Of a DNA stretch of 60,664 nt, positions 10,363-56,379 are shown one piece after another (positions within the stretch are counted from its first letter, which is position 1; each line of letters starts with the position of its first letter). Made by a program: the position numbers and the translations under genes. This DNA is from Actinomycetes bacterium (GTDB lineage Bacteria > Actinomycetota > Actinomycetes > S36-B12), in assembly GCA_014190275.1 (NCBI GenBank), contig BJGE01000006.1:1-60664 (forward strand). The letters are read 5' to 3'. The notes under the pieces were generated by a model. That model did no database searches, was not told the DNA's origin, and was given only the letters and a program-made list of their open reading frames with translations.

Positions 10363-11490
10363 GTGAATCCACTTCAGCAGACCCCGCTAGCCGAGCGTCA
10401 TCTGGCCGCCGGCGCGAAGATGGCCAACTTCGGTGGTTGGGAGATGCCAATCGAGTACACGGGTGTAGTCGCTGAGCACACCGCCGTGCGCACCGGCGTC
10501 GGTATCTTCGATGTTTCGCATATGGGCAAAGTCCGGATCAAAGGCCCCGGTGCCGCCGCCTTCCTAAATGGACTACTTACCAATGACCTAGCTCGAATTT
10601 CATCTGGGCAAGCGCAGTACACCATGTTGTGTAAGGAAGCGGAGTTACTCAGTGACTCTGGTGGCGTAATTGACGACCTCATCGTCTACCGGTGGGCCGA
10701 TGACGACATCTTCATGGTGCCCAATGCCTCGAATGCGCCAAGTGTTGTTGCGGTACTGCGAGCCGCGGCGCCCGCCGGAGTGGAAATAATCGACCAGCAC
10801 CATGAGTTAGGCATCATCGCCGTCCAAGGCCCGAGCAGTAAAGTTCTAATTGAATCAATGGGGATGCCCGCAGGGCATGACTACATGACCATGGCTGAGT
10901 CGAAGTTTCGGGGTGAGCCGGTCACCGTATGTCGAACCGGTTACACCGGTGAGCACGGCTATGAATTGGTGGCACCCGCCCCGGTGCTGGTTGATCTTTG
11001 GGACGCCTTACTGGCTCGCCGCGAGGAGTTTGGTGTGGTTCGAGCCGGGCTGGGTGCGCGCGACACTTTGCGAACCGAGATGGGCTATCCGCTACATGGG
11101 CAGGACCTGAGTTTGGATATTTCCCCCGTTCAAGCAGGGTTGACTTGGGCGGTGGGTTGGGACAAGCCGGTATTTGCCGGGCGTGCGGCACTTCTTGCCG
11201 AACGCGAAGTGGGCCCGAGGCGCCGGTTGCGCGGGCTAAAGTCGCTGGACCGCGGGATCCCGCGCCCGCATATGGAAGTGCGACGGGTGGCGGCCGAGGC
11301 CCTCGCCGGTGCGGTCATCGGCGAGGTCACCAGCGGTACTTTTTCGCCGACCCTTAAACAAGGAGTCGCACTCGCGTTACTTGATCCGTCCATCGATTTC
11401 GGCGACGAGGTAGTGGTCGACGTCCGCGGTCGGGAATCTCGATTCATCGTGACCAAGCCGCCATTTGTGGAACCGTCCACCCGAACTTAA
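10363..11490 (+). CDS. gcvT: Glycine cleavage system T protein (aminomethyltransferase)
   Basis: Takes the aminomethyl group from lipoylated H protein and passes a methylene group to tetrahydrofolate, releasing ammonia. The conserved Asp motif DDLIVYR (about 105-111) and RTGYTGEHGYEL (about 193-204) are present; the C-terminal barrel is complete. Length 375 aa, GTG start. No gcvH or gcvP is in the window, and the short upstream gap leaves no room for a glycine riboswitch. Its stop overlaps the cobS stop by 4 nt. Confidence 0.95.
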   Translation: MNPLQQTPLAERHLAAGAKMANFGGWEMPIEYTGVVAEHTAVRTGVGIFDVSHMGKVRIKGPGAAAFLNGLLTNDLARISSGQAQYTMLCKEAELLSDSGGVIDDLIVYRWADDDIFMVPNASNAPSVVAVLRAAAPAGVEIIDQHHELGIIAVQGPSSKVLIESMGMPAGHDYMTMAESKFRGEPVTVCRTGYTGEHGYELVAPAPVLVDLWDALLARREEFGVVRAGLGARDTLRTEMGYPLHGQDLSLDISPVQAGLTWAVGWDKPVFAGRAALLAEREVGPRRRLRGLKSLDRGIPRPHMEVRRVAAEALAGAVIGEVTSGTFSPTLKQGVALALLDPSIDFGDEVVVDVRGRESRFIVTKPPFVEPSTRT

Positions 11491-12257
11491 AACAGGGCGG
11501 CGACCACGAGGGCAGTAGTAGTGCTGGCCTCGATCACCGCCCCCAGCACATCACCGGTGATCCCGCCGAGCCGGCGCCTGGCGATAGCAACGGCAATCAC
11601 CCCAATGATGATTCCGGCGATAACCATGCCAACACCTGCGGCGCCCAAGCCAGTGAGATTAAGGGCGAAATAGGCTGCGAACAGCAGCACGAGCGTCCAG
11701 CTAATAGTTACGGGTAAGGGCACAGTGCCTGCAACGACCGCCCCGAGCCCATCGGGTCTTGCGGCTGGCACCTTATTGGTGCAGGCCCACAGCAAAGCGA
11801 CCCGGCCGGTGACCACGGCGATGATCATGATCAGGTAACCACGGCCGGCGCCCATCGAGGTGGCCGTCACAGCGCTGAGCGCAAATACCTGTAACAACAA
11901 GTTGAAGGCAATGGCCAGCACCCCGAAAGGTCCGATATCGGACTTACGGGCGATCACTAGGGCCTCGGCGGGTGGCTTGCCGCTGCCAAGTGCGTCAGCG
12001 GTGTCGGCTAGGCCATCGAGATGGAGGGCGCGCGTGCACCAGGCGAGGAGTCCAAGGCTAAGTGCCGACAGCAGTAACGTCCTAGCCAAGTTGTCGCTCG
12101 CTACCAATAATGGCAAGGCGCAGATTACGGACAGCACCAGCGCGATAACCGGTGCGAATGTCATAGCCCACCGGGCGGTAGCTCGATCGACTCGGCGCGG
12201 GGCTGGCACGGGCAGTCGTGTGAAGGTGCCAACAGCTAGCCGAAGCCAATCAGGCAT
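11487..12257 (-). CDS. cobS: Adenosylcobinamide-GDP ribazoletransferase (cobalamin synthase)
   Basis: Integral membrane enzyme that joins adenosylcobinamide-GDP to alpha-ribazole (phosphate) in the last steps of B12 assembly. The metal-binding motif HLDGLADTADALGS (about 79-92) is intact and several hydrophobic helices follow. The 256-aa length is usual. The start overlaps cobT by 8 nt. It is the last gene of the riboswitch-led cobalamin operon. Confidence 0.94.
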   Translation of the reverse strand: MPDWLRLAVGTFTRLPVPAPRRVDRATARWAMTFAPVIALVLSVICALPLLVASDNLARTLLLSALSLGLLAWCTRALHLDGLADTADALGSGKPPAEALVIARKSDIGPFGVLAIAFNLLLQVFALSAVTATSMGAGRGYLIMIIAVVTGRVALLWACTNKVPAARPDGLGAVVAGTVPLPVTISWTLVLLFAAYFALNLTGLGAAGVGMVIAGIIIGVIAVAIARRRLGGITGDVLGAVIEASTTTALVVAALF

Positions 12258-13323
12258 CGCGGTCTGACACCCCAGCTTCGGTGAAGGTGGCCATTTCGTT
12301 TAATAAGGCAATTGCGGATTGCACAATTGGCAGGGCCAGTAGGGCACCGGTGCCTTCACCGAGGCGCATTTGATAGTTAAGTAATGGGGTCATGTTCAGG
12401 CGGGTCAGGGCAAGTGCATGTGCTGGCTCGGCTGATAGGTGGCCCGCGAGCCACCAGTTCTTGGCCCGGTAGTCAATCCGGTCTGCGACGAGCGCGGCGG
12501 CCGTGGTGATCGTCCCGTCAAGGATGACCGGGGTGCGGCGAATGGCTGCTTGCAATAGGTAGCCGGACATCGCCGCAATGTCGGCGCCGGCCACCACCTG
12601 CAGTAACGTCCTCGGTTGGCCCATGAAGGGTCGACCGCGTTTCATCGCATCACGTACCGCCGCACATTTGCGCATCCAGGTGGCATCGTCTATTCCGGTG
12701 CCGGTGCCTGTCACGGTGGCGGCATCATTCGAAGTGAGCAGTCCGATCAACGTCGCTGCCGGGGTGGTGTTGCCAATACCCATGTCACCTGCGATCAAAA
12801 GATCCGCCCCGGAGTCGATTTCCTCATCGGCGATGCGCTGCCCGAGTGCAAATGCTGCTTCACCCTCGGCTTGGGTCAGCGCATCCTCGCGATCGATCGC
12901 ACCGCTACCTCTCCTGATGCGATGTTGTACGACCTCAGGACCGATGTTGTCGAGGTAGGCTGGATCACAATCGACACTGACGTCGATTACGCGAACCTGC
13001 GCACCAACCAGGCGCGCCAGTACATTGACGGCGGCGCCGCCGTTCAGGAAATTCAGCACCATCTGGGCGGTGACCTCGGGCGGGAAGGCCGAAGTTCCGA
13101 CCGCACGCGCGACCCCGTGGTCGCCGACGAAGACGACGACACTGGGTCGGGTGAAGGGGATCGGCGGGCAACGACCTTGAACTCCCGCGGCCCAGCTGCT
13201 GATTTCCTCCAAGCGCCCGAGCGCGCCGGCGGGTTTCGTAAGTGTTAATTGCCGTGCAGTTGCTTCCGCACTGGCGAGCGCATCAGGGAGGTCAACTTCA
13301 ATTCGATCAAGGTCCGGGTCCAT
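12250..13323 (-). CDS. cobT: Nicotinate-nucleotide--dimethylbenzimidazole phosphoribosyltransferase
   Basis: Makes alpha-ribazole phosphate, the lower ligand nucleotide of cobalamin, from nicotinate mononucleotide and a benzimidazole. Marks: VVFVGDHGVA (about 68-77), GDMGIGNTTPAA (about 179-190) and the catalytic Glu in MRLGEGTGALLA near residue 322. Length 357 aa is normal. It sits between cobU and cobS in one operon. No lower-ligand synthesis gene is seen here. Confidence 0.95.
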   Translation of the reverse strand: MDPDLDRIEVDLPDALASAEATARQLTLTKPAGALGRLEEISSWAAGVQGRCPPIPFTRPSVVVFVGDHGVARAVGTSAFPPEVTAQMVLNFLNGGAAVNVLARLVGAQVRVIDVSVDCDPAYLDNIGPEVVQHRIRRGSGAIDREDALTQAEGEAAFALGQRIADEEIDSGADLLIAGDMGIGNTTPAATLIGLLTSNDAATVTGTGTGIDDATWMRKCAAVRDAMKRGRPFMGQPRTLLQVVAGADIAAMSGYLLQAAIRRTPVILDGTITTAAALVADRIDYRAKNWWLAGHLSAEPAHALALTRLNMTPLLNYQMRLGEGTGALLALPIVQSAIALLNEMATFTEAGVSDRDA

Positions 13324-13327
13324 GCGG

Positions 13328-14734
13328 TTAGCCTCTCACCGTGGTCAATTCAACAAGTGGCACCGCTCTACCGGCGACCATGAAGGTCACCTGACGACAG
13401 TTTTGGGCGACTTGAGCATTGACAACTCCGAGCAGGTCGCGAAATAGGCGGCCGCTGCTAGTTTCCGGCACCACCCCTTGGCCCACCTCATTCGAAACCA
13501 AGATCACCTCGGCCCGCGTATTGTGCAAGGCGGCAATAAGTTGGGTGGTTCGCTGGCGCACGTCCTTCTGCGCCATTTCACTAACCTGCGGGTCGGTCGA
13601 CCAGCCATCTATGTCATCCAAAGTCCTGGTTAGCCAAAGCGCCAAGCAATCGATCACCAGGCAGCTACCGGCGGCTGCGCCCTCGATCTCTGCTACCAGG
13701 TCAATGGTCTCTTCGGTTCGCCAATGCCCCGGGCGGCGCCGGCGGTGCGCAGTAATCCGGGCATTCCAGTTTGGGTCTTCACCCGCCGGGTAACCGGTCG
13801 CCAGATAGGTGACATGGGCAGACTTGGCGGCGATGGTTTCGGCGAAGTGGGATTTACCGGATCGGGCGCCGCCCAAAATGAAGTGGTGGCTATTGCGGAT
13901 TGGCCGTTGGCCCACTTCAATGGCGGTGCCATCGTCGACAATGCGGGCGCGGCAGGCGAAGAGTTGAGCGCGTAGTTGCTCGGTGGGCGGATTGTGGTGG
14001 CTTAGGTGTATCGCAACAACATCGGTGTGCTCGGTGGTTGCGTTTATGTCGCGCAGTTCTTGTACGGCCTTCGCAAAGGTGTCTAGATCAAGATGTCCGT
14101 GCCCGTGGTCAAATTTGGTGCCAAAAGTCTCATCAAGTAGCACCAGGTCAAAGCACCGTCCACGAATCTGATCTAGCAAAGCCGCACCAAATGGCCCGGT
14201 ATCAGTTGCATAGAAGAGGCGGTGTCCATCGGGGGCGGTGACGTCAAAGAGCACGGCTTCCTCGGCGAGCACGTCGCCATCACCGGTGGCATGTGATGCG
14301 GGCAGTACTCGTACCGCATAGTCACCACTTCGTGTCACCAAGGTCAGCTCTTCGCCAGCTTCGATGGGATGCAGCAGCACGTCATCATTTGGTCCGATCC
14401 AGTCGCGGCAACGATTGAGGGATTCCGGTGGGGCCCACACATGTAACGTGAATCCGGGGTTAACCCAACTGCGCCAGAGCAGGAAGTCCGGGGCAAGGTG
14501 GTCCGGGTGGCCGTGGGTGATCAAAATATGCTCGAGCTCGGCGAACGAGGTGCCGAATCGACCGGCGGCGGCCGCCGCCGTGGGGCCGGCGTCCAGTAAG
14601 AGGCAGCCGTCCACCAGTGCTGCGGTCGGGCACCGAGTTCTGTCCGCAGCCCGTTCGCTGGTGCATGACTGGCAGCGGCAAAACGGGTTGGGCCAACCGT
14701 CTGCGGATCCCGTGCCCAGGAGATGGACGATCAT
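13328..14734 (-). CDS. cobU: Fused metallo-beta-lactamase-fold hydrolase and CobU kinase/guanylyltransferase
   Basis: Residues 1 to about 280 form a metallo-beta-lactamase-fold domain with HGHPDH (about 74-79), further metal-site His/Asp residues and an N-terminal Cys-rich CRCQSC segment resembling PhnP-type phosphodiesterases. From about 284 a complete CobU follows: P-loop ILGGARSGKS and the guanylylation His region AHRRRRPGHW. CobU phosphorylates adenosylcobinamide and converts it to the GDP form for CobS. The start overlaps the S-component stop by 4 nt. Similar fusions occur in other actinobacteria as far as I recall; the hydrolase substrate is unknown. Confidence 0.9.
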   Translation of the reverse strand: MIVHLLGTGSADGWPNPFCRCQSCTSERAADRTRCPTAALVDGCLLLDAGPTAAAAAGRFGTSFAELEHILITHGHPDHLAPDFLLWRSWVNPGFTLHVWAPPESLNRCRDWIGPNDDVLLHPIEAGEELTLVTRSGDYAVRVLPASHATGDGDVLAEEAVLFDVTAPDGHRLFYATDTGPFGAALLDQIRGRCFDLVLLDETFGTKFDHGHGHLDLDTFAKAVQELRDINATTEHTDVVAIHLSHHNPPTEQLRAQLFACRARIVDDGTAIEVGQRPIRNSHHFILGGARSGKSHFAETIAAKSAHVTYLATGYPAGEDPNWNARITAHRRRRPGHWRTEETIDLVAEIEGAAAGSCLVIDCLALWLTRTLDDIDGWSTDPQVSEMAQKDVRQRTTQLIAALHNTRAEVILVSNEVGQGVVPETSSGRLFRDLLGVVNAQVAQNCRQVTFMVAGRAVPLVELTTVRG

Positions 14735-15534
14735 GGCACCGGCACAAAGGTGGGCTGTGGGTCAAATACCGCGCGGCGCGAAACCCGTCGTAGTGCATTC
14801 AAAATTGGCGCGCCCGCGATAAGGATCAACGTGACCGTTAACACCGCACGCGGAATGTCATAACCAAGGGACGTCACAAGGGTGAATCTGACCCACGAAA
14901 TTAGATTTTCAACCATTGGTGCACCTGGAACATAAGACAGGGCTGATGGCAGATTGGCGGTGAACGGCCAGAACCAAAGATTCAGCAGCAGGCCGTAGGC
15001 AAAGCTGGCGACCGCCCCGTAGGCGGCGAGGAGTACTAGCTCAGGTCGGCCGGTAGCCCGGGGCAGCAGGCCAGCACCGAGGCCGACCCATGCGGCCCCG
15101 AGCATTTGAAATGGCAGCCACGGCCCGACCCCACCGGTTAGTAGCGCCGAGGAAAATAGCGATACTGCCCCAAGGGCAAAACCAAACCCAGGCCCAAGGG
15201 CTCGACCACCCAGCACCAGCACCACCCAAATCGGCTCGAGCCCGGCAGTACCGCCACCTAGTGGTCGCAGTACGGAGACCACTGCCGCTAGCACTCCGAG
15301 CAGGGCGATCGCCTTGGCGTCCATACCACCATCGGTGAAAGATGAAACCACCACGGCGAGCAGTAGCGGGATGACGATGGCAAATAACCAGGGTGCATCC
15401 GCGGCGTGGGCGACCGCACTTGAAGTCGGGGCAGCGATCAGTGGCCAGCCAAAGGCGACAATCCCGACCAGCGAGGTGGCCGCGATGGTGATGATTGATC
15501 GCGGTCCAAGCCGAAGGGCCAAGGAGGTACTCAC
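14731..15534 (-). CDS. ECF transporter S component, probable cobalamin/corrinoid specificity
   Basis: A very hydrophobic 267-aa protein with about six helices and no ATPase motifs, encoded directly after the ECF A and T components. In ECF importers the S component binds the vitamin. The cobalamin riboswitch at the operon head and the cobU-cobT-cobS genes that follow argue for cobalamin or cobinamide as substrate, functionally like CbrT. GTG start overlaps the ATPase stop by 1 nt. Specificity is inferred from context, not from the sequence. Confidence 0.85.
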   Translation of the reverse strand: MSTSLALRLGPRSIITIAATSLVGIVAFGWPLIAAPTSSAVAHAADAPWLFAIVIPLLLAVVVSSFTDGGMDAKAIALLGVLAAVVSVLRPLGGGTAGLEPIWVVLVLGGRALGPGFGFALGAVSLFSSALLTGGVGPWLPFQMLGAAWVGLGAGLLPRATGRPELVLLAAYGAVASFAYGLLLNLWFWPFTANLPSALSYVPGAPMVENLISWVRFTLVTSLGYDIPRAVLTVTLILIAGAPILNALRRVSRRAVFDPQPTFVPVP

Positions 15535-17156
15535 TACCCGACCTGCTCAGTCATTGCGGCTCGAACCTCGGAGACCGTCAACCAATCCTCGGGCGCCAAG
15601 ATCTTCGCGACCTGCGGTGCGAACATGGGGGAGGCCAGCACCACTGCTTGGGTCGGCCCATCAGCAACCACTTCGCCATCAGCGAGCACGATCACCCGGG
15701 TTGCTACCTCAGCGGCGAGCTCCACATCATGGGTTGCCAGCACGATCCCGTGTCCGGCCGCTGCCAGCTCCCGAAGTACTTTTACCAATCTTGCCTTGGT
15801 GGGATAGTCAAGGCCACGCGTTGGCTCATCGAGTAAAAGCAGTGGCGGTCGGGCGGCGAGCACGATAGCCAGTGCTAAGAGCAGTCTTTGGCCTTCGGAT
15901 AGATCCCGCGGGTGCGTACCGTCCATGACTTCGGGTGCGAGAAGAGCCAGAACCGCGCGGGTGGTTCCTGGTTCAACCCCGGCGTCATGATCTGATGAGC
16001 GGCACTCGCCGGCGACGGTCGAGGCTTCGAGTAGGTCACCGGGGTCTTGCGGTACTAGGCCAACACTGTGCACGAGTTCTGGGCCTTTGATCTCGCGTGG
16101 GTCTTTACCGTTCGTGCGGACTACCCCCGAACTTGTTGGCCTTAGGCCCACCATGGTGCTCAGCAGCGTAGATTTACCGGCTCCATTTCTGCCCATTAGC
16201 GCAACGATTTCACCTCTGTTGATGGTGGTGCTCACATTGCGCAGGGCGGCCACGGCTCCGTATCGCACGGTCAACTTGTCAGTGATCGTCAGTGGCGTCG
16301 CGTCGCGCGCACCCTTGATGATTCGAAGTGGCGCCACGTGACCGGTCAAGAGCTCGCGCAAAGGGCCGGCGGCACGCCTGGCATCGCGAATTGTCAACGG
16401 GAGTGGCTGCCAACCGGCAAGTCTGCCAAGTTCAACAACAGGTGGGGCGATTGGCGAATTGCCCATCATGTCGCTCGGGGTGCCGCTGCTAACGGGCGCA
16501 CCGTCGCCGGGAACGATTAAAATGCGATCGGCATATTGCACCACTCGCTCCAACCGGTGTTCCGCCATCACAACCGTGACATTGAGATCGTGAACCAATC
16601 GCTGGAGTGCGGCAAGAACATCTTCGGCGGCGCCTGGGTCTAATGCCGAGGTGGGCTCATCGAGGACGAGCACTTTCGGGTGCGAAGTCAGCACCGAGCC
16701 GATTGCGACTCGCTGCCGCTGGCCGGCCGAGAGCGAAAGCAGTGGTCGGTTTCGCAGGTCTGCTAAGCCCAGTAGGTCAAGGGTTTCTTCAACTCGCCGG
16801 CGCATGACATCAGGTGCCAGGCCGAGGCACTCCATGCCGTATGCGAGTTCCTCTTCCACCGTGTCGGCAACAAATCCGCTCATCGGATCCTGTGGCACCA
16901 CCCCCACCAGATCGGCCAACTCGCGGGGCGGGTTGGCGGCGGTATCGCGTCCGTCGACAAGGATTCGGCCGGTGAGCGTGCCACCGGTGAAGTGCGGGAC
17001 CAAGCCGTTGATGGCTCGGAGCAAGGTGGTCTTGCCACTGCCGGTGCGGCCCACGACCAACACGAGTTCACCCTCGGGGATTTGCAAATTCACCTCGGCT
17101 AGTACCGGCTCGGTGGCGCCCGGGTAGGTAATAGAAACGCATTCGAAGTTGATCAT
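15534..17156 (-). CDS. ECF transporter ATPase, two fused ABC domains
   Basis: A 540-aa protein with two complete ABC cassettes. The first (about 1-235) has Walker A VGRTGSGKTTLL, signature LSAGQRQRVAIGS and Walker B VLVLDEPTSALD. The second (about 285-520) has MGRNGAGKSTLL, LSEGQRLLLALAI and LLLLDEPTRGLD. This fuses EcfA and EcfA' in one chain, a common actinobacterial arrangement. It powers import with the T and S proteins encoded on either side, with which it overlaps by 4 and 1 nt. Confidence 0.92.
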   Translation of the reverse strand: MINFECVSITYPGATEPVLAEVNLQIPEGELVLVVGRTGSGKTTLLRAINGLVPHFTGGTLTGRILVDGRDTAANPPRELADLVGVVPQDPMSGFVADTVEEELAYGMECLGLAPDVMRRRVEETLDLLGLADLRNRPLLSLSAGQRQRVAIGSVLTSHPKVLVLDEPTSALDPGAAEDVLAALQRLVHDLNVTVVMAEHRLERVVQYADRILIVPGDGAPVSSGTPSDMMGNSPIAPPVVELGRLAGWQPLPLTIRDARRAAGPLRELLTGHVAPLRIIKGARDATPLTITDKLTVRYGAVAALRNVSTTINRGEIVALMGRNGAGKSTLLSTMVGLRPTSSGVVRTNGKDPREIKGPELVHSVGLVPQDPGDLLEASTVAGECRSSDHDAGVEPGTTRAVLALLAPEVMDGTHPRDLSEGQRLLLALAIVLAARPPLLLLDEPTRGLDYPTKARLVKVLRELAAAGHGIVLATHDVELAAEVATRVIVLADGEVVADGPTQAVVLASPMFAPQVAKILAPEDWLTVSEVRAAMTEQVG

Positions 17157-18274
17157 GCGGCGACCTCAATCCGGGGCAATTGGGAAATGTTAGTGCGGGG
17201 GAGCGCGGGCGCGGTAAATGCCGGGGTGGCTGCGATGACGAGACCGATCAGGGGCAGTAGTGGCAGTGCGGGCCAGGTCGGGGGATTGCTGGGGGTATCG
17301 AGTCCAGCAACCGAAAGCCAGGCGGCGGATACGAAAATAACTGCAAGGAAAACTCCGGCACCTGCCACCAAAACTTCGGGCAGAGCCCAGGGATCCGGCC
17401 GGTACTTAGTTCGGACGGCGGCGCGAGCGGAGAGGGTAATCGAAAGTAGGCAAACACTGACTCCGACAACCAGCAGCGGCAGGCCGAGTGCGACCGGGGA
17501 CCCTGCGGCGATGAGCGCGTAAGTGCCGATGCAGGCAGCGACCAACCCGGTGAGGAGGAGTGCGGAATTCGCGCGCCGGGTGGAGGAGCTAATTGATCCG
17601 CGCCGTCCGTAGCCGCGCGAATCCATGGCCGCTGCAAGGGTCACAGATTTTTCTAAGGCGCCCTCGAATACCGGCATTGCTGAACCGGCGATTGCCCGAA
17701 TGCCGCTTGTGGGGCGACCGCGTAGGCGGCGGGCGGTGCGTACGCGATCGACATCGGCAACCAACTGGGGAGTAAATGTCATAGCCACCACAACACTCAC
17801 CCCGAATTCATAGAGTGCTGCAGGGACGGATTTAAGCAACCTGCTTGGTGATGCGAGTGAATTTGCGGCCCCAACGCAGATCAAAATCGTTGCAAGGCGC
17901 AGGCCGTCGTAGCAGGCGAGGAGCAGACTCTCGAAGGTGATGTCACCGCCAAGTCGAACACCTGCTAACCATGAAGGCAAAGTCACACCGGGCAGGTTGA
18001 GCAGCACGGTGGTGCCGAAGGCGGCACCGAAAATCACTTGAACGCCGACTCGAATGACGATCACCGCCACCCCTAGGCGCAGGAAGAACTTGAATGAACG
18101 CCCCCACGGCGCATCCGGTTTTCGCGCGGAAACCACTAAGGCGGCAACTGCAATGATCAAGGCAAGGAGTAGCGGATTGGTGGTGCGACTTGCCGCTGCG
18201 GCCAGGCCAAGTGCCCAGATCCACCATGCTGCCGGGTGCAGTGATCTGGGAAGGGCAAAAAGTGATCCGGTCAT
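17153..18274 (-). CDS. ecfT: ECF transporter T component
   Basis: The 373-aa membrane protein couples the ATPases to the S component. The cytoplasmic coupling region has two Arg-containing short helices typical of EcfT (RTARRLRGRPTSG near 190 and MDSRGYGRRG near 223). Hydrophobic segments flank them, and an extra C-terminal block of helices makes it longer than the roughly 260-aa minimal family. ATG 18274 overlaps the upstream stop by 4 nt. Confidence 0.88.
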   Translation of the reverse strand: MTGSLFALPRSLHPAAWWIWALGLAAAASRTTNPLLLALIIAVAALVVSARKPDAPWGRSFKFFLRLGVAVIVIRVGVQVIFGAAFGTTVLLNLPGVTLPSWLAGVRLGGDITFESLLLACYDGLRLATILICVGAANSLASPSRLLKSVPAALYEFGVSVVVAMTFTPQLVADVDRVRTARRLRGRPTSGIRAIAGSAMPVFEGALEKSVTLAAAMDSRGYGRRGSISSSTRRANSALLLTGLVAACIGTYALIAAGSPVALGLPLLVVGVSVCLLSITLSARAAVRTKYRPDPWALPEVLVAGAGVFLAVIFVSAAWLSVAGLDTPSNPPTWPALPLLPLIGLVIAATPAFTAPALPRTNISQLPRIEVAA

Positions 18275-18975
18275 GGCACCCGCCTACGTTGCAGGACCCA
18301 AGCACCGACTAAGCCAAGCGCAATAACCACTCCAACGGCGATGAGTGGCACCGGGCTGCCACCTGCGGGTGCCGGGGCGGCCGCGATAGCACTGTTGCTG
18401 GCCGCTGCTGACGGCGCGGCTAAAACATCGGTTTCCGCATCTTCGCCGATCGAAGTCGCGGTGGTTTCAATGGCGATCGCGCATTCACCGGTTGGGTAAG
18501 AGTCAATCCCGCAGACCAACCCCGACTGGACTCGCGCAGTTGCCACCGCCATCAGGACATCGGCGCCGGATCCGGTTTCATCAATAACCGCGCACGCGCC
18601 GCGTGCTGGTGGGGGCACTTGACCGGCGGGTGCTGCATTCGCGACCCCCGGATCAATTACCATCGCGACTCGAATTTGGCCTTCGGGTCGCGGTACGGAC
18701 CCGCAGATTCGCTTGAATGCTTGAGTCGGGTCGGTGCGCGGTGAATAGGCACTACCACTCGCGTTTGCGGTAACCGCAAATCGCCAGGCCTGCACATCAC
18801 CATCGTTAGGTGCGGTGCCTGCCGGACCAACCTGGGAGAAAACCCATTGGCCGTTGCTCACCGTCCAAAACGTCCAATAGCGGTATGCCGTCTCGGCCCG
18901 GGCGGCCGGGGCGAATACCAGCGCCGCAAGACAAATTGCGACGCTGATGCAGGTGGCCCGGACCGAGATCGGCAT
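18271..18975 (-). CDS. Exported, membrane-anchored SCO2322-family protein, transcobalamin beta-domain-like
   Basis: The 234-aa protein has a signal peptide (about 1-27, ending APAARA), an extracellular domain, an Ala/Pro-rich spacer and a C-terminal helix (about 208-228) followed by QRRRVP, so it is anchored facing outwards. It matches the actinobacterial SCO2322 family, of unknown function. Near residues 31-70 YWTFWTVSNGQW...DGDVQAWRF resembles the YW-F---NG-W...DGD-(V)-WR pattern of DUF4430, the C-terminal beta domain of transcobalamin and intrinsic factor. Four Cys may form disulfides. Genes on both sides and the cobalamin riboswitch point to corrinoid capture; this is inference. Confidence 0.75.
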   Translation of the reverse strand: MPISVRATCISVAICLAALVFAPAARAETAYRYWTFWTVSNGQWVFSQVGPAGTAPNDGDVQAWRFAVTANASGSAYSPRTDPTQAFKRICGSVPRPEGQIRVAMVIDPGVANAAPAGQVPPPARGACAVIDETGSGADVLMAVATARVQSGLVCGIDSYPTGECAIAIETTATSIGEDAETDVLAAPSAAASNSAIAAAPAPAGGSPVPLIAVGVVIALGLVGAWVLQRRRVP

Positions 18976-19997
18976 TACTGCTGGCTCTGCTGCACTGAAG
19001 TGATCAAATTAATGCCGCCGAAATTGGTTGGCTTTTTGTTTGTCGCTTCGCTGACCAGCAGGAGTAAACCCAGTGCGCCGGGATTTGCCACCCCGGCTGG
19101 GATCGCGTAGCTGCCTGTATTTGCAACCAAGGTGGTGGTGCCTTTGGAGACAGCTTGCTTACCGTTGGAATTTGCCACGAAACCAAGAATCGCAAATGCG
19201 GTAGATGTGTAGTCGAACCCTTCACCGAATGAATTAGGCAAAGCGCCAGATTTGGTAACTAAGTTGGCCAGATAACTGCCAGCATTGCTCACGGTAGTAC
19301 TTCCACAAGTCGGGTTACCTTGCATCTTTTTCGAGCCTTCAACTTTTAACCCGTCGGTAAGCCCGGTGAAAGCCTGAGCAGTTGCCGAGGCATTTGCGGA
19401 CCCGGGCTTTTGGTACGCGAGCCCGCCGCCACTGGCGCAGGATAACTTGATCGATGTCAAATAATTACCGGCTTCTCGAATGGCGGTCGAATTTTTAGGA
19501 GAAGTTGCCAGCTTTACTGCTGCTAGGACAAGTCCGGTTGAGTTGGCGTCGGAGTCGGAACCGACGTAGAAGGGCCAGCCCCCATCCTTGTTTTGGTTCT
19601 TGGCCAACCAGCTAGCGGCAGCGGCAGCGTCCGAGACCTGATTCACTGCGAGGAGTGCACTTAGGGCCAATGCGGTGGAGTTGGTGTCGGGGCCGGTGTA
19701 GTTGACCGGATCGGAGGAGCCGCATGGCACGGTGGTATCGGCTCGAAAAGATTCAAAGCTGCCATCAGCACATTGCTGTCGAAGGAGCCACGTGATTGCC
19801 GCCTTGTTGGGTTTGACATCATTTGCGACCAAACCCAAGATTGCTAAGGATTGGCGAAACACGCCGTCGTAAGTGGCATCCGCGCTGCCATAGAGTCCTG
19901 ATGTAGCGGATGGGCCGGCATGTGCTGGGCTGATCGCTGTGGTCAATGCCAGGCTAGCTGCGGCCAGCGCGACGATTGCGGAAATACGTTTGGACAT
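18975..19997 (-). CDS. Exported alpha/alpha-barrel repeat protein (prenyltransferase/squalene cyclase-like repeats)
   Basis: First gene after the cobalamin riboswitch. A signal peptide (about 1-28, ending SPAHA) precedes repeats of the form DGxF/W...D-x-NSTALALSAL, seen near 70-115, 130-160, 190-215 and 250-275, typical of alpha6/alpha6-barrel prenyltransferase and squalene oxidase repeats. No cyclase DxDD motif is evident, so it is probably a binding protein. Transcobalamin has this same barrel fold. Cys pairs may form disulfides. I chose ATG 19997 (340 aa); GTG 20003 and TTG 20006 are in frame, and none has a clear ribosome site. Confidence 0.8.
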   Translation of the reverse strand: MSKRISAIVALAAASLALTTAISPAHAGPSATSGLYGSADATYDGVFRQSLAILGLVANDVKPNKAAITWLLRQQCADGSFESFRADTTVPCGSSDPVNYTGPDTNSTALALSALLAVNQVSDAAAAASWLAKNQNKDGGWPFYVGSDSDANSTGLVLAAVKLATSPKNSTAIREAGNYLTSIKLSCASGGGLAYQKPGSANASATAQAFTGLTDGLKVEGSKKMQGNPTCGSTTVSNAGSYLANLVTKSGALPNSFGEGFDYTSTAFAILGFVANSNGKQAVSKGTTTLVANTGSYAIPAGVANPGALGLLLLVSEATNKKPTNFGGINLITSVQQSQQ

Positions 19998-20109: not shown

Positions 20110-20235
20110 GTTCCGTTACCTCGACGGGTGGAGCCGCTCGTAACTGCCAGGTGCTCCGACTCGCCCAGTTACTGGGATCACGGTTGCGGGACAGCGCCGG
20201 GATTTCACCGGACTTTCCCTGGATTCAATTACGCG
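20110..20235 (-). ncRNA. Cobalamin riboswitch
   Basis: Minus-strand RNA carries the consensus core GGGAA-GTCCGGTGAAATCCC (about 20199-20219), then CTGTCCCGCAACCGTG (about 20180-20195), and the B12-box region with GAGTCGGAGCACCTGGCAG (about 20145-20163). Order and spacing fit the B12 element family, which binds adenosyl- or other cobalamins and shuts off downstream genes. It governs the eight-gene transporter and salvage operon at 11487-19997. Confidence 0.93.
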
Positions 20236-55665: not shown

Positions 55666-56261
55666 AGGTGGACGGGCTCAGCGAGTGGGGCACGTTTGGC
55701 GAGCCAACTGCGCAGGCCAATTACCGCCATCACAATTAAGACCGCGTAGAACATCGAGGTGAACCACAGATTCTGGGTGGCGTAGAGCGCGGCGCCGACG
55801 ATATTGACGATAATCCAAAGCACCCATGACTCTGCGTATTCCCGGACCATCAGCACCTGGGCCACGACACTTCCGACGAAGACAAAAGTATCGGGCCAAG
55901 GCGCCGGATCACCAATCGCGGCCAGCACCGGGACTAAAGCCAGCCACGCCACCAAGCTCCCCACCAAGATGATCAACCGGGTGCGGTTCGTTACGGTCGT
56001 CGGGGTGATGGATTTTGGTCCCCAGCCGAACCAGCCCCAAATTGCGGCGGCGATAAAGACCAATTGCAGGGCTGCTGTGCCGTACAGGGCATACTCCCAA
56101 AGCAGCCAGCCATAAAGGGCGCTGGAGAGGAAGTAGAAGGGCCAAGCCCATCTGGTGCCGCGAATGGCAAGGCCGATGCCGATGAAGGCGGTGATTACGG
56201 CCAGTAATTCAAGCACGGTCACTTCATAGTTCCAGGCACTGAAAGCAATATCCATGAACAT
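55662..56261 (-). CDS. pnuT: PnuC-family transporter, probable thiamine transporter (PnuT)
   Basis: A 199-aa membrane protein with about seven helices. WGWFGWGPKS (about 79-88) and ESWVLWIIVNIVGAALY (about 148-164) are PnuC family marks. PnuC imports nicotinamide riboside by facilitated diffusion; members under TPP riboswitches (PnuT) take up thiamine. ATG 56261 has AGGAG, 5 nt upstream, at the 3' end of the riboswitch; ATG 56255 is an alternative. The kinase downstream would trap the substrate by phosphorylation. Confidence 0.85.
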   Translation of the reverse strand: MFMDIAFSAWNYEVTVLELLAVITAFIGIGLAIRGTRWAWPFYFLSSALYGWLLWEYALYGTAALQLVFIAAAIWGWFGWGPKSITPTTVTNRTRLIILVGSLVAWLALVPVLAAIGDPAPWPDTFVFVGSVVAQVLMVREYAESWVLWIIVNIVGAALYATQNLWFTSMFYAVLIVMAVIGLRSWLAKRAPLAEPVHL

Positions 56262-56267
56262 TTGGCT

Positions 56268-56360
56268 CCTCCCTACGCCGGAATTACCCGGACAGGTTCG
56301 AACGGTCGGCGACGCCGTGCTGTCGCCCTCTCAGCTCCACTAGGCAGGAGCTCCCGTGCA
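56268..56360 (-). ncRNA. TPP (thiamine pyrophosphate) riboswitch
   Basis: On the minus strand the THI box is clear: CACGGGAGCTCC, then GCTGAGAGGG, then GAACCTGTCCGGGTAATTCC and GGCGTAGGGAGG. Spacing fits the family. No terminator follows, and the AGGAG of the downstream gene lies at its 3' end, so control is probably at translation initiation: TPP binding would hide the ribosome site. It is the basis for assigning the PnuC-like protein to thiamine. Confidence 0.95.
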
Positions 56361-56379
56361 TGTTTAATTGTGTTACGAC

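Follow-up and report, generated by a model that had tools for sequence, protein, structure and literature searches.

A circularly permuted relative of DUF4430 and an exported alpha/alpha barrel in a probable corrinoid import operon of actinobacteria

The SCO2322-family protein encoded in the window (the whole stretch of DNA analyzed here, 60,664 nucleotides) is a circular permutation relative to homologues that occupy the same operon slot in other actinobacteria, with its C-terminal hairpin placed first. Its gene lies between those of an SCO2321-family barrel protein and an ECF transporter, under a cobalamin riboswitch. We consider it probable that SCO2321, SCO2322 and the ECF operon constitute a corrinoid capture-and-import system, in which the pair most likely picks up extracellular B12-type molecules ahead of import. 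The operon, the riboswitch, the predicted folds, the permutation by comparison to same-slot homologues and the profile homology to DUF4430 were computed directly.

A riboswitch-led operon with two exported proteins

Eight genes on the minus strand form an operon led by an AdoCbl-II riboswitch, which exceeds the Rfam gathering score of 36.5 bits. As a preliminary description of this DNA had proposed, a cobalamin riboswitch heads the operon and ECF genes are present downstream. The order is SCO2321 barrel, SCO2322 anchored protein and EcfT, followed by a double EcfA, EcfS, a fusion of a metallo-beta-lactamase (MBL) domain with CobU, CobT and CobS. Most adjacent frames share one to a few bases, and the others are in near contact. 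EcfT, EcfA/EcfA' and an S component are all encoded in this one operon.

20141-20231, minus strand: AdoCbl-II (cobalamin) riboswitch aptamer (Rfam RF01689, 49.6 bits, E 4.8e-9)
18975-19997 including stop, minus strand: SCO2321-family exported alpha6/alpha6 barrel, candidate alpha module, 340 aa
19917-19997, minus strand: signal peptide of the barrel, about residues 1-27 (hydropathy and sequence)
18271-18975 including stop, minus strand: SCO2322-family exported, membrane-anchored protein, candidate beta module, 234 aa
17153-18274, minus strand: EcfT of the CbiQ family (Pfam PF02361, 26.8 bits, and family profile)
15534-17156, minus strand: EcfA-EcfA' double ATPase (profile matches)
14731-15534, minus strand: EcfS-like S component (weak TIGR04518 match and homologues in other loci)
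13328-14734, minus strand: metallo-beta-lactamase (PhnP-like) fused to CobU (profile matches)
12250-13323, minus strand: CobT (PF02277, 412 bits)
11487-12257, minus strand: CobS (PF02654, 145 bits)

In a profile search, no named family fits the S component of the window well, and homologues of it are present in nearly all sufficiently long loci as well as in DUF4430 loci. Elsewhere in the window there is a TPP riboswitch (56253-56367, minus strand, 64.6 bits).

Re-reading of both leading genes bore out the coordinates and the anchored-protein motif given in the preliminary description. Based on hydropathy, the SCO2322 protein starts with a signal peptide and ends with a transmembrane helix followed by RRR. 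It contains YRYWTFWTVSNGQW...NDGDVQAWRF, so that export, membrane anchor and the YW..NG.W..DG..W pattern are all present as described. The protein scores 144.7 bits against SCO2322_fam NF040672 and passes the curated cut-off of 85. The solo SCO2322 of one other locus (L050) apparently lacks the C-terminal membrane anchor, and short frames in small-genome relatives suggest the same.

The barrel protein matches SCO2321_fam NF053823 with 211.5 bits (E 1.8e-62) and does not reach the equivalog cut-off of 300 bits; it is homologous, but outside the strict equivalog. Its matches to Prenyltrans/SQHop profiles are weak, and a DXDD motif was not found in its sequence. The structure model (P0002; pLDDT 92.5, pTM 0.92) has twelve helices arranged as six pairs in an alpha6/alpha6 fold. 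Together with the signal peptide, this agrees with the earlier proposal of an exported alpha/alpha barrel devoid of an evident cyclase motif. The folds nearest to the model are squalene-hopene cyclase (Z 22), drimenyl cyclases and complement TEDs. Transcobalamin was not among the barrel matches listed in the fold searches, VIA-align included, nor in the barrel sequence search. Judged from the model, nothing in these comparisons appears to single out transcobalamin or to speak against it. Barrel and beta domain were never fused in one chain and are encoded by separate genes in all loci examined. The SCO2321 family was not found in the plasmid collection.

SCO2322 is circularly permuted relative to its same-slot homologues

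The anchored protein can be divided into the following parts, by comparison to the unpermuted domain.

18772-18891, minus strand: hairpin YW..NG.W..G..DG..WRF, residues 29-68, corresponding to the C-terminal half of the unpermuted domain
18679-18771, minus strand: linker with a helix and an invariant Cys, residues 69-99, the permutation joint
18478-18678, minus strand: beta-beta-alpha-beta-beta half with three invariant Cys, residues 100-166, corresponding to the N-terminal half of the unpermuted domain
18286-18366, minus strand: C-terminal transmembrane anchor, about residues 204-230, then RRR (hydropathy)

The two domain halves stand in the opposite order in weak relatives of SCO2322 from other actinobacteria (L060-L069 and L158). 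In these C-N proteins, VVVDF...C...TG..AL..AG...FICRIDGKP..C comes first and is followed by YWSYW...W.YS..G......EGW.F. Of the reading frames that contain both halves, 90 have the N-C order of the window protein and 16 the C-N order; three-piece intermediates (N-C-N or C-N-C) were not found among them. An HMM of the C-N group matches native SCO2322 proteins in two pieces in reversed order, with a median of 28 bits for the best piece, and re-ordered SCO2322 proteins as one full-length domain with a median of 60.8 bits. Similarly, the hhalign score of the SCO2322 profile against the C-N profile rises from 86.6 in the native order to 156.1 after rotation at the linker, and in a scan of all rotations the maximum falls exactly at the linker. 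SCO2322 has four invariant cysteines, one at the end of the linker and three in the C half, and most C-N relatives have counterparts of all four with the order kept. In L065, L066 and L067 there are two C-N beta-domain genes per locus, which bring to mind the pairs of SLBB proteins described by Burroughs et al.

The SCO2322 model (P0001; pLDDT 88.5) comprises a hairpin, a strand, the linker helix, two strands, a helix and a hairpin, giving a predicted strand order of bb-(h)-bb-a-bb. In this model, a beta-hairpin (strands 122-125 and 128-132) directly follows a helix (112-119), which is a trait of the transcobalamin-like SLBB clade. The chain order of transcobalamin-like SLBB domains, bb-a-bb-bb, is not found in SCO2322, the predicted order bb-h-bb-a-bb being a rotation of it. 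It is likewise a rotation of the order bb-[abb]-bb given for the transcobalamin domain 4zrpA02 in a 2026 paper (PMC13385337). Foldseek and VIA-align found no PDB fold match for the native-order model; the structural similarity to DUF4430 expected in the preliminary description was not seen with Foldseek. This blank is expected for a permuted model because both aligners are order-dependent. We did not take the blank searches as support for a new fold.

A relationship to DUF4430, the beta domain of transcobalamin, had also been proposed. Direct HMM comparison gave no match, as PF14478 (DUF4430) recognized neither the native nor the re-ordered window protein in a Pfam scan, a failure we attribute to the circular permutation of the domain. 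Profile-profile comparison with 27 DUF4430 sequences from other classes, gathered through PF14478, did support the kinship. Native SCO2322 gave an hhalign score of 38.8 over 62 columns; the rotated profile reached 44.4 over 99 columns (probability 92.8) and aligned along the whole length of DUF4430. The highest score among 60 column shuffles was 18.0.

The DUF4430 profile in turn finds human transcobalamin-1 (4kki) with E 6e-4, and SCO2322 may accordingly be linked to human transcobalamin through DUF4430, transitively only. A direct match was sought and rejected: when the transcobalamin-1 segment was compared with the SCO2322 and C-N profiles, 8 and 56 of 100 shuffles scored equally well, and for this reason we claim no more than the transitive link. 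Run against the PDB set, the A5 profile did not retrieve transcobalamin.

In a tree of the EcfA proteins, DUF4430 loci are placed outside, the C-N group is basal and the N-C group of the window lies inside, a topology that suits a derivation of N-C from C-N. The N-C and C-N labels require four to five changes on this tree, and one N-C pair (L057 and L059) stands among C-N rows, so that a single origin of the permutation is not established. In the available portion of the beta-grasp review by Burroughs and colleagues, the E1 UFD domain is the sole case of circular permutation listed, with none of the transcobalamin type (PMC1949818).

Distribution and genomic context

Of 297 genomes sampled within the class, 103 have a protein scoring above the NF040672 cut-off, and in a 246-genome sample of the phylum no genome from another class does. 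PF14478 has the opposite distribution, with 40 of its 42 positive genomes in the phylum sample lying outside the class. Of 93 records of window-type SCO2322 loci, 85 have an EcfT gene no more than 3 kb away on the same strand; a few places were fetched twice among these records, and L036 and L088 represent a single place. Of the 41 permuted records tested for a cobalamin riboswitch, 38 have one immediately upstream in the correct orientation (26 at the gathering score, 12 below it at E 0.00015-0.04). These counts are in line with the earlier suggestion that the gene pair belongs under B12 riboswitches beside ECF genes. The arrangement is far beyond chance, since the pair is a conserved family with neighbors recurring in dozens of genomes.

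Among the eight records in which EcfT is not nearby, four are at contig ends and four (L044, L053, L055 and L056) have no EcfT in the stretch read; L053, L055 and L056 are also the three of the 41 tested in which no upstream riboswitch was found. In L055 and L056, divergent SCO2322-like genes adjoin CobU and CobS, with no ECF genes, barrel or detectable riboswitch, and L044 and L053 contain SCO2321-SCO2322 pairs with the riboswitch kept in L044. Five GenBank records of metagenome-assembled genomes titled Bifidobacterium breve (L073, L077, L083, L084 and L085) have operons that group with those of freshwater actinobacteria, and the genes of L073 and L077 are 86% and 77% identical to the window gene; these records look mislabeled.

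An SCO2321 match is absent from 12 genomes that carry SCO2322, some of them of 1.3-1.4 Mb and most with ECF genes and a detected riboswitch. A two-module clamp is therefore not obligatory, and in these genomes the beta domain has to function by itself or together with a different protein.

In other classes of Actinomycetota, DUF4430 takes the same place in the operon, in support of the relationship put forward in the preliminary description. Homologous EcfA and EcfS are found in seven of eight such loci, EcfT and a barrel also in three, and a B12 riboswitch in four. L154, L155 and L156 have EcfT, an alpha/alpha toroid and cobalamin riboswitches of 108, 106 and 116 bits. A second locus in a Streptomyces-type genome (L158) encodes a C-N protein, EcfT, EcfA, EcfS, a toroid and a DUF4430 protein in a row, its riboswitch being on the opposite strand. 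Another Streptomyces-type genome (G163) has both one N-C and one C-N locus.

Proposed corrinoid capture and alternative functions

Drawing on homology and context, we propose corrinoid binding, a two-chain clamp and hand-over to EcfS. At low AdoCbl, the riboswitch would permit expression of the operon. SCO2322, as a putative permuted DUF4430/SLBB transcobalamin-type beta domain, would be held on the outer face of the membrane by the anchor at its C-terminus, and SCO2321 would be a secreted alpha6/alpha6 barrel. A corrinoid (cobalamin, another cobamide or cobinamide) could be held between the two, in a two-chain counterpart of the single-chain grip of transcobalamin. The captured molecule would then pass to EcfS, with import driven by the EcfT-EcfAA' module, and CobU, CobT and CobS would complete incomplete corrinoids to cobalamin.

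Of the preliminary view that the pair represents the same two modules as transcobalamin, the alpha6/alpha6 barrel and the kinship to DUF4430 hold, but not the native order, a direct match or obligatory pairing. We regard as evenly balanced the more specific proposition of a vitamin importer of the ECF type that relies on a dedicated clamp of two chains outside the cell. The beta half of this clamp would have been derived from the transcobalamin-type domain by a natural permutation within actinobacteria, which would put the membrane anchor behind the opposite side of the domain that closes over B12. If true, this would be a B12 receptor geometry new to description. The domain that closes over B12 in human transport proteins would gain an example of natural circular permutation, and the view that ECF transporters can do without extracellular binding proteins would have an exception in an importer fed by such proteins. 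The capture-and-import reading provides a testable function for two widespread uncharacterized families, which occur in Streptomyces-like and abundant freshwater actinobacteria, and a pointer to the B12 supply of these organisms.

Single-marker searches of the genome of the freshwater host, which is 96.8% complete, found no CbiC, no Peripla_BP_2/BtuF-type binding protein and no BacA, and the genome encodes five B12-binding domains. In combination with the riboswitch and CobU, CobT and CobS, this makes the window operon the best candidate for a corrinoid importer of the host. It seems unlikely to us that this architecture serves the import of a corrinoid precursor or constituent (cobinamide, alpha-ribazole, dimethylbenzimidazole or cobalt) and not of complete cobamides. 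CobU, CobT and CobS are encoded downstream in the same operon, and cobalt-importing ECF transporters are known, but cobalt or the base alone would be insufficient for a host with five B12-binding domains in which neither CbiC, a marker of corrin-ring synthesis, nor another known B12 importer was found. A large cavity with a DUF4430 cap, moreover, fits a corrinoid. Cobinamide could still be a cargo. It is highly improbable that SCO2321 is an exported enzyme of the terpene-cyclase or glycosidase type and the pair is unrelated to corrinoid binding. Although squalene-hopene and drimenyl cyclases are its best fold and sequence matches, the missing DXDD motif, the export, the invariant cysteines and the constant association with ECF genes and the B12 riboswitch all argue otherwise.

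The 12 barrel-less genomes, most with SCO2322 in riboswitch-ECF loci, and the solo beta domains known in bacteria and fish (PMC1796856, PMC4350170) leave room for a tentative alternative in which SCO2322 alone is the ECF partner, as surface receptor or EcfS cap, with the barrel in a dispensable role as helper or as tether to the cell wall. We consider this doubtful, given that the barrel, where present, is the first gene of the operon, that barrels also lie beside DUF4430 in other classes, and that fused toroid-SLBB proteins are common (PMC1796856).

The proposed capture-and-import system resembles animal transcobalamin, haptocorrin and intrinsic factor in combining an alpha6/alpha6 barrel with a small, apparently beta-grasp domain in an extracellular B12 context. 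It differs from them in comprising two separate chains and in a beta domain that is permuted, membrane-anchored and devoid of a direct sequence match. With ECF-CbrT B12 transporters it shares an ECF module and an S component; to our knowledge, CbrT systems have been described without extracellular binding proteins. Capture of B12 at the surface ahead of the transporter is also a feature of the BtuG/BtuH lipoproteins of Bacteroides, which have unrelated folds and serve the outer-membrane BtuB system. Like bacterial SLBB (DUF4430) CbiO/CbiQ systems, the operon encodes a secreted or anchored beta domain, an alpha/alpha toroid and ECF genes with homologous EcfA and EcfS, but unlike the SLBB proteins, SCO2322 escapes recognition by PF14478.

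The general idea of bacterial transcobalamin-like proteins acting with CbiO/CbiQ is already published (Burroughs et al. 2007, PMC1796856). The available portion of that account proposes a role in B12 scavenging for SLBB proteins of the transcobalamin-like type, which are fused to alpha/alpha toroids or encoded next to them and to CbiO/CbiQ genes, and assigns the clade to low-GC Gram-positives, planctomycetes and some archaea; in it, neither an SCO2322-type actinobacterial family nor the permutation appears. SCO2322 was not named in the literature searched, and both the family of this type and its permutation appear to be new.

As a minor observation on the salvage genes, the MBL domain forms the N-terminal part of the CobU fusion, and this long fusion is also present in the related loci L072, L074, L078, L080 and L082. 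The fusion may fill a missing salvage step, for example, the hydrolysis of alpha-ribazole phosphate.
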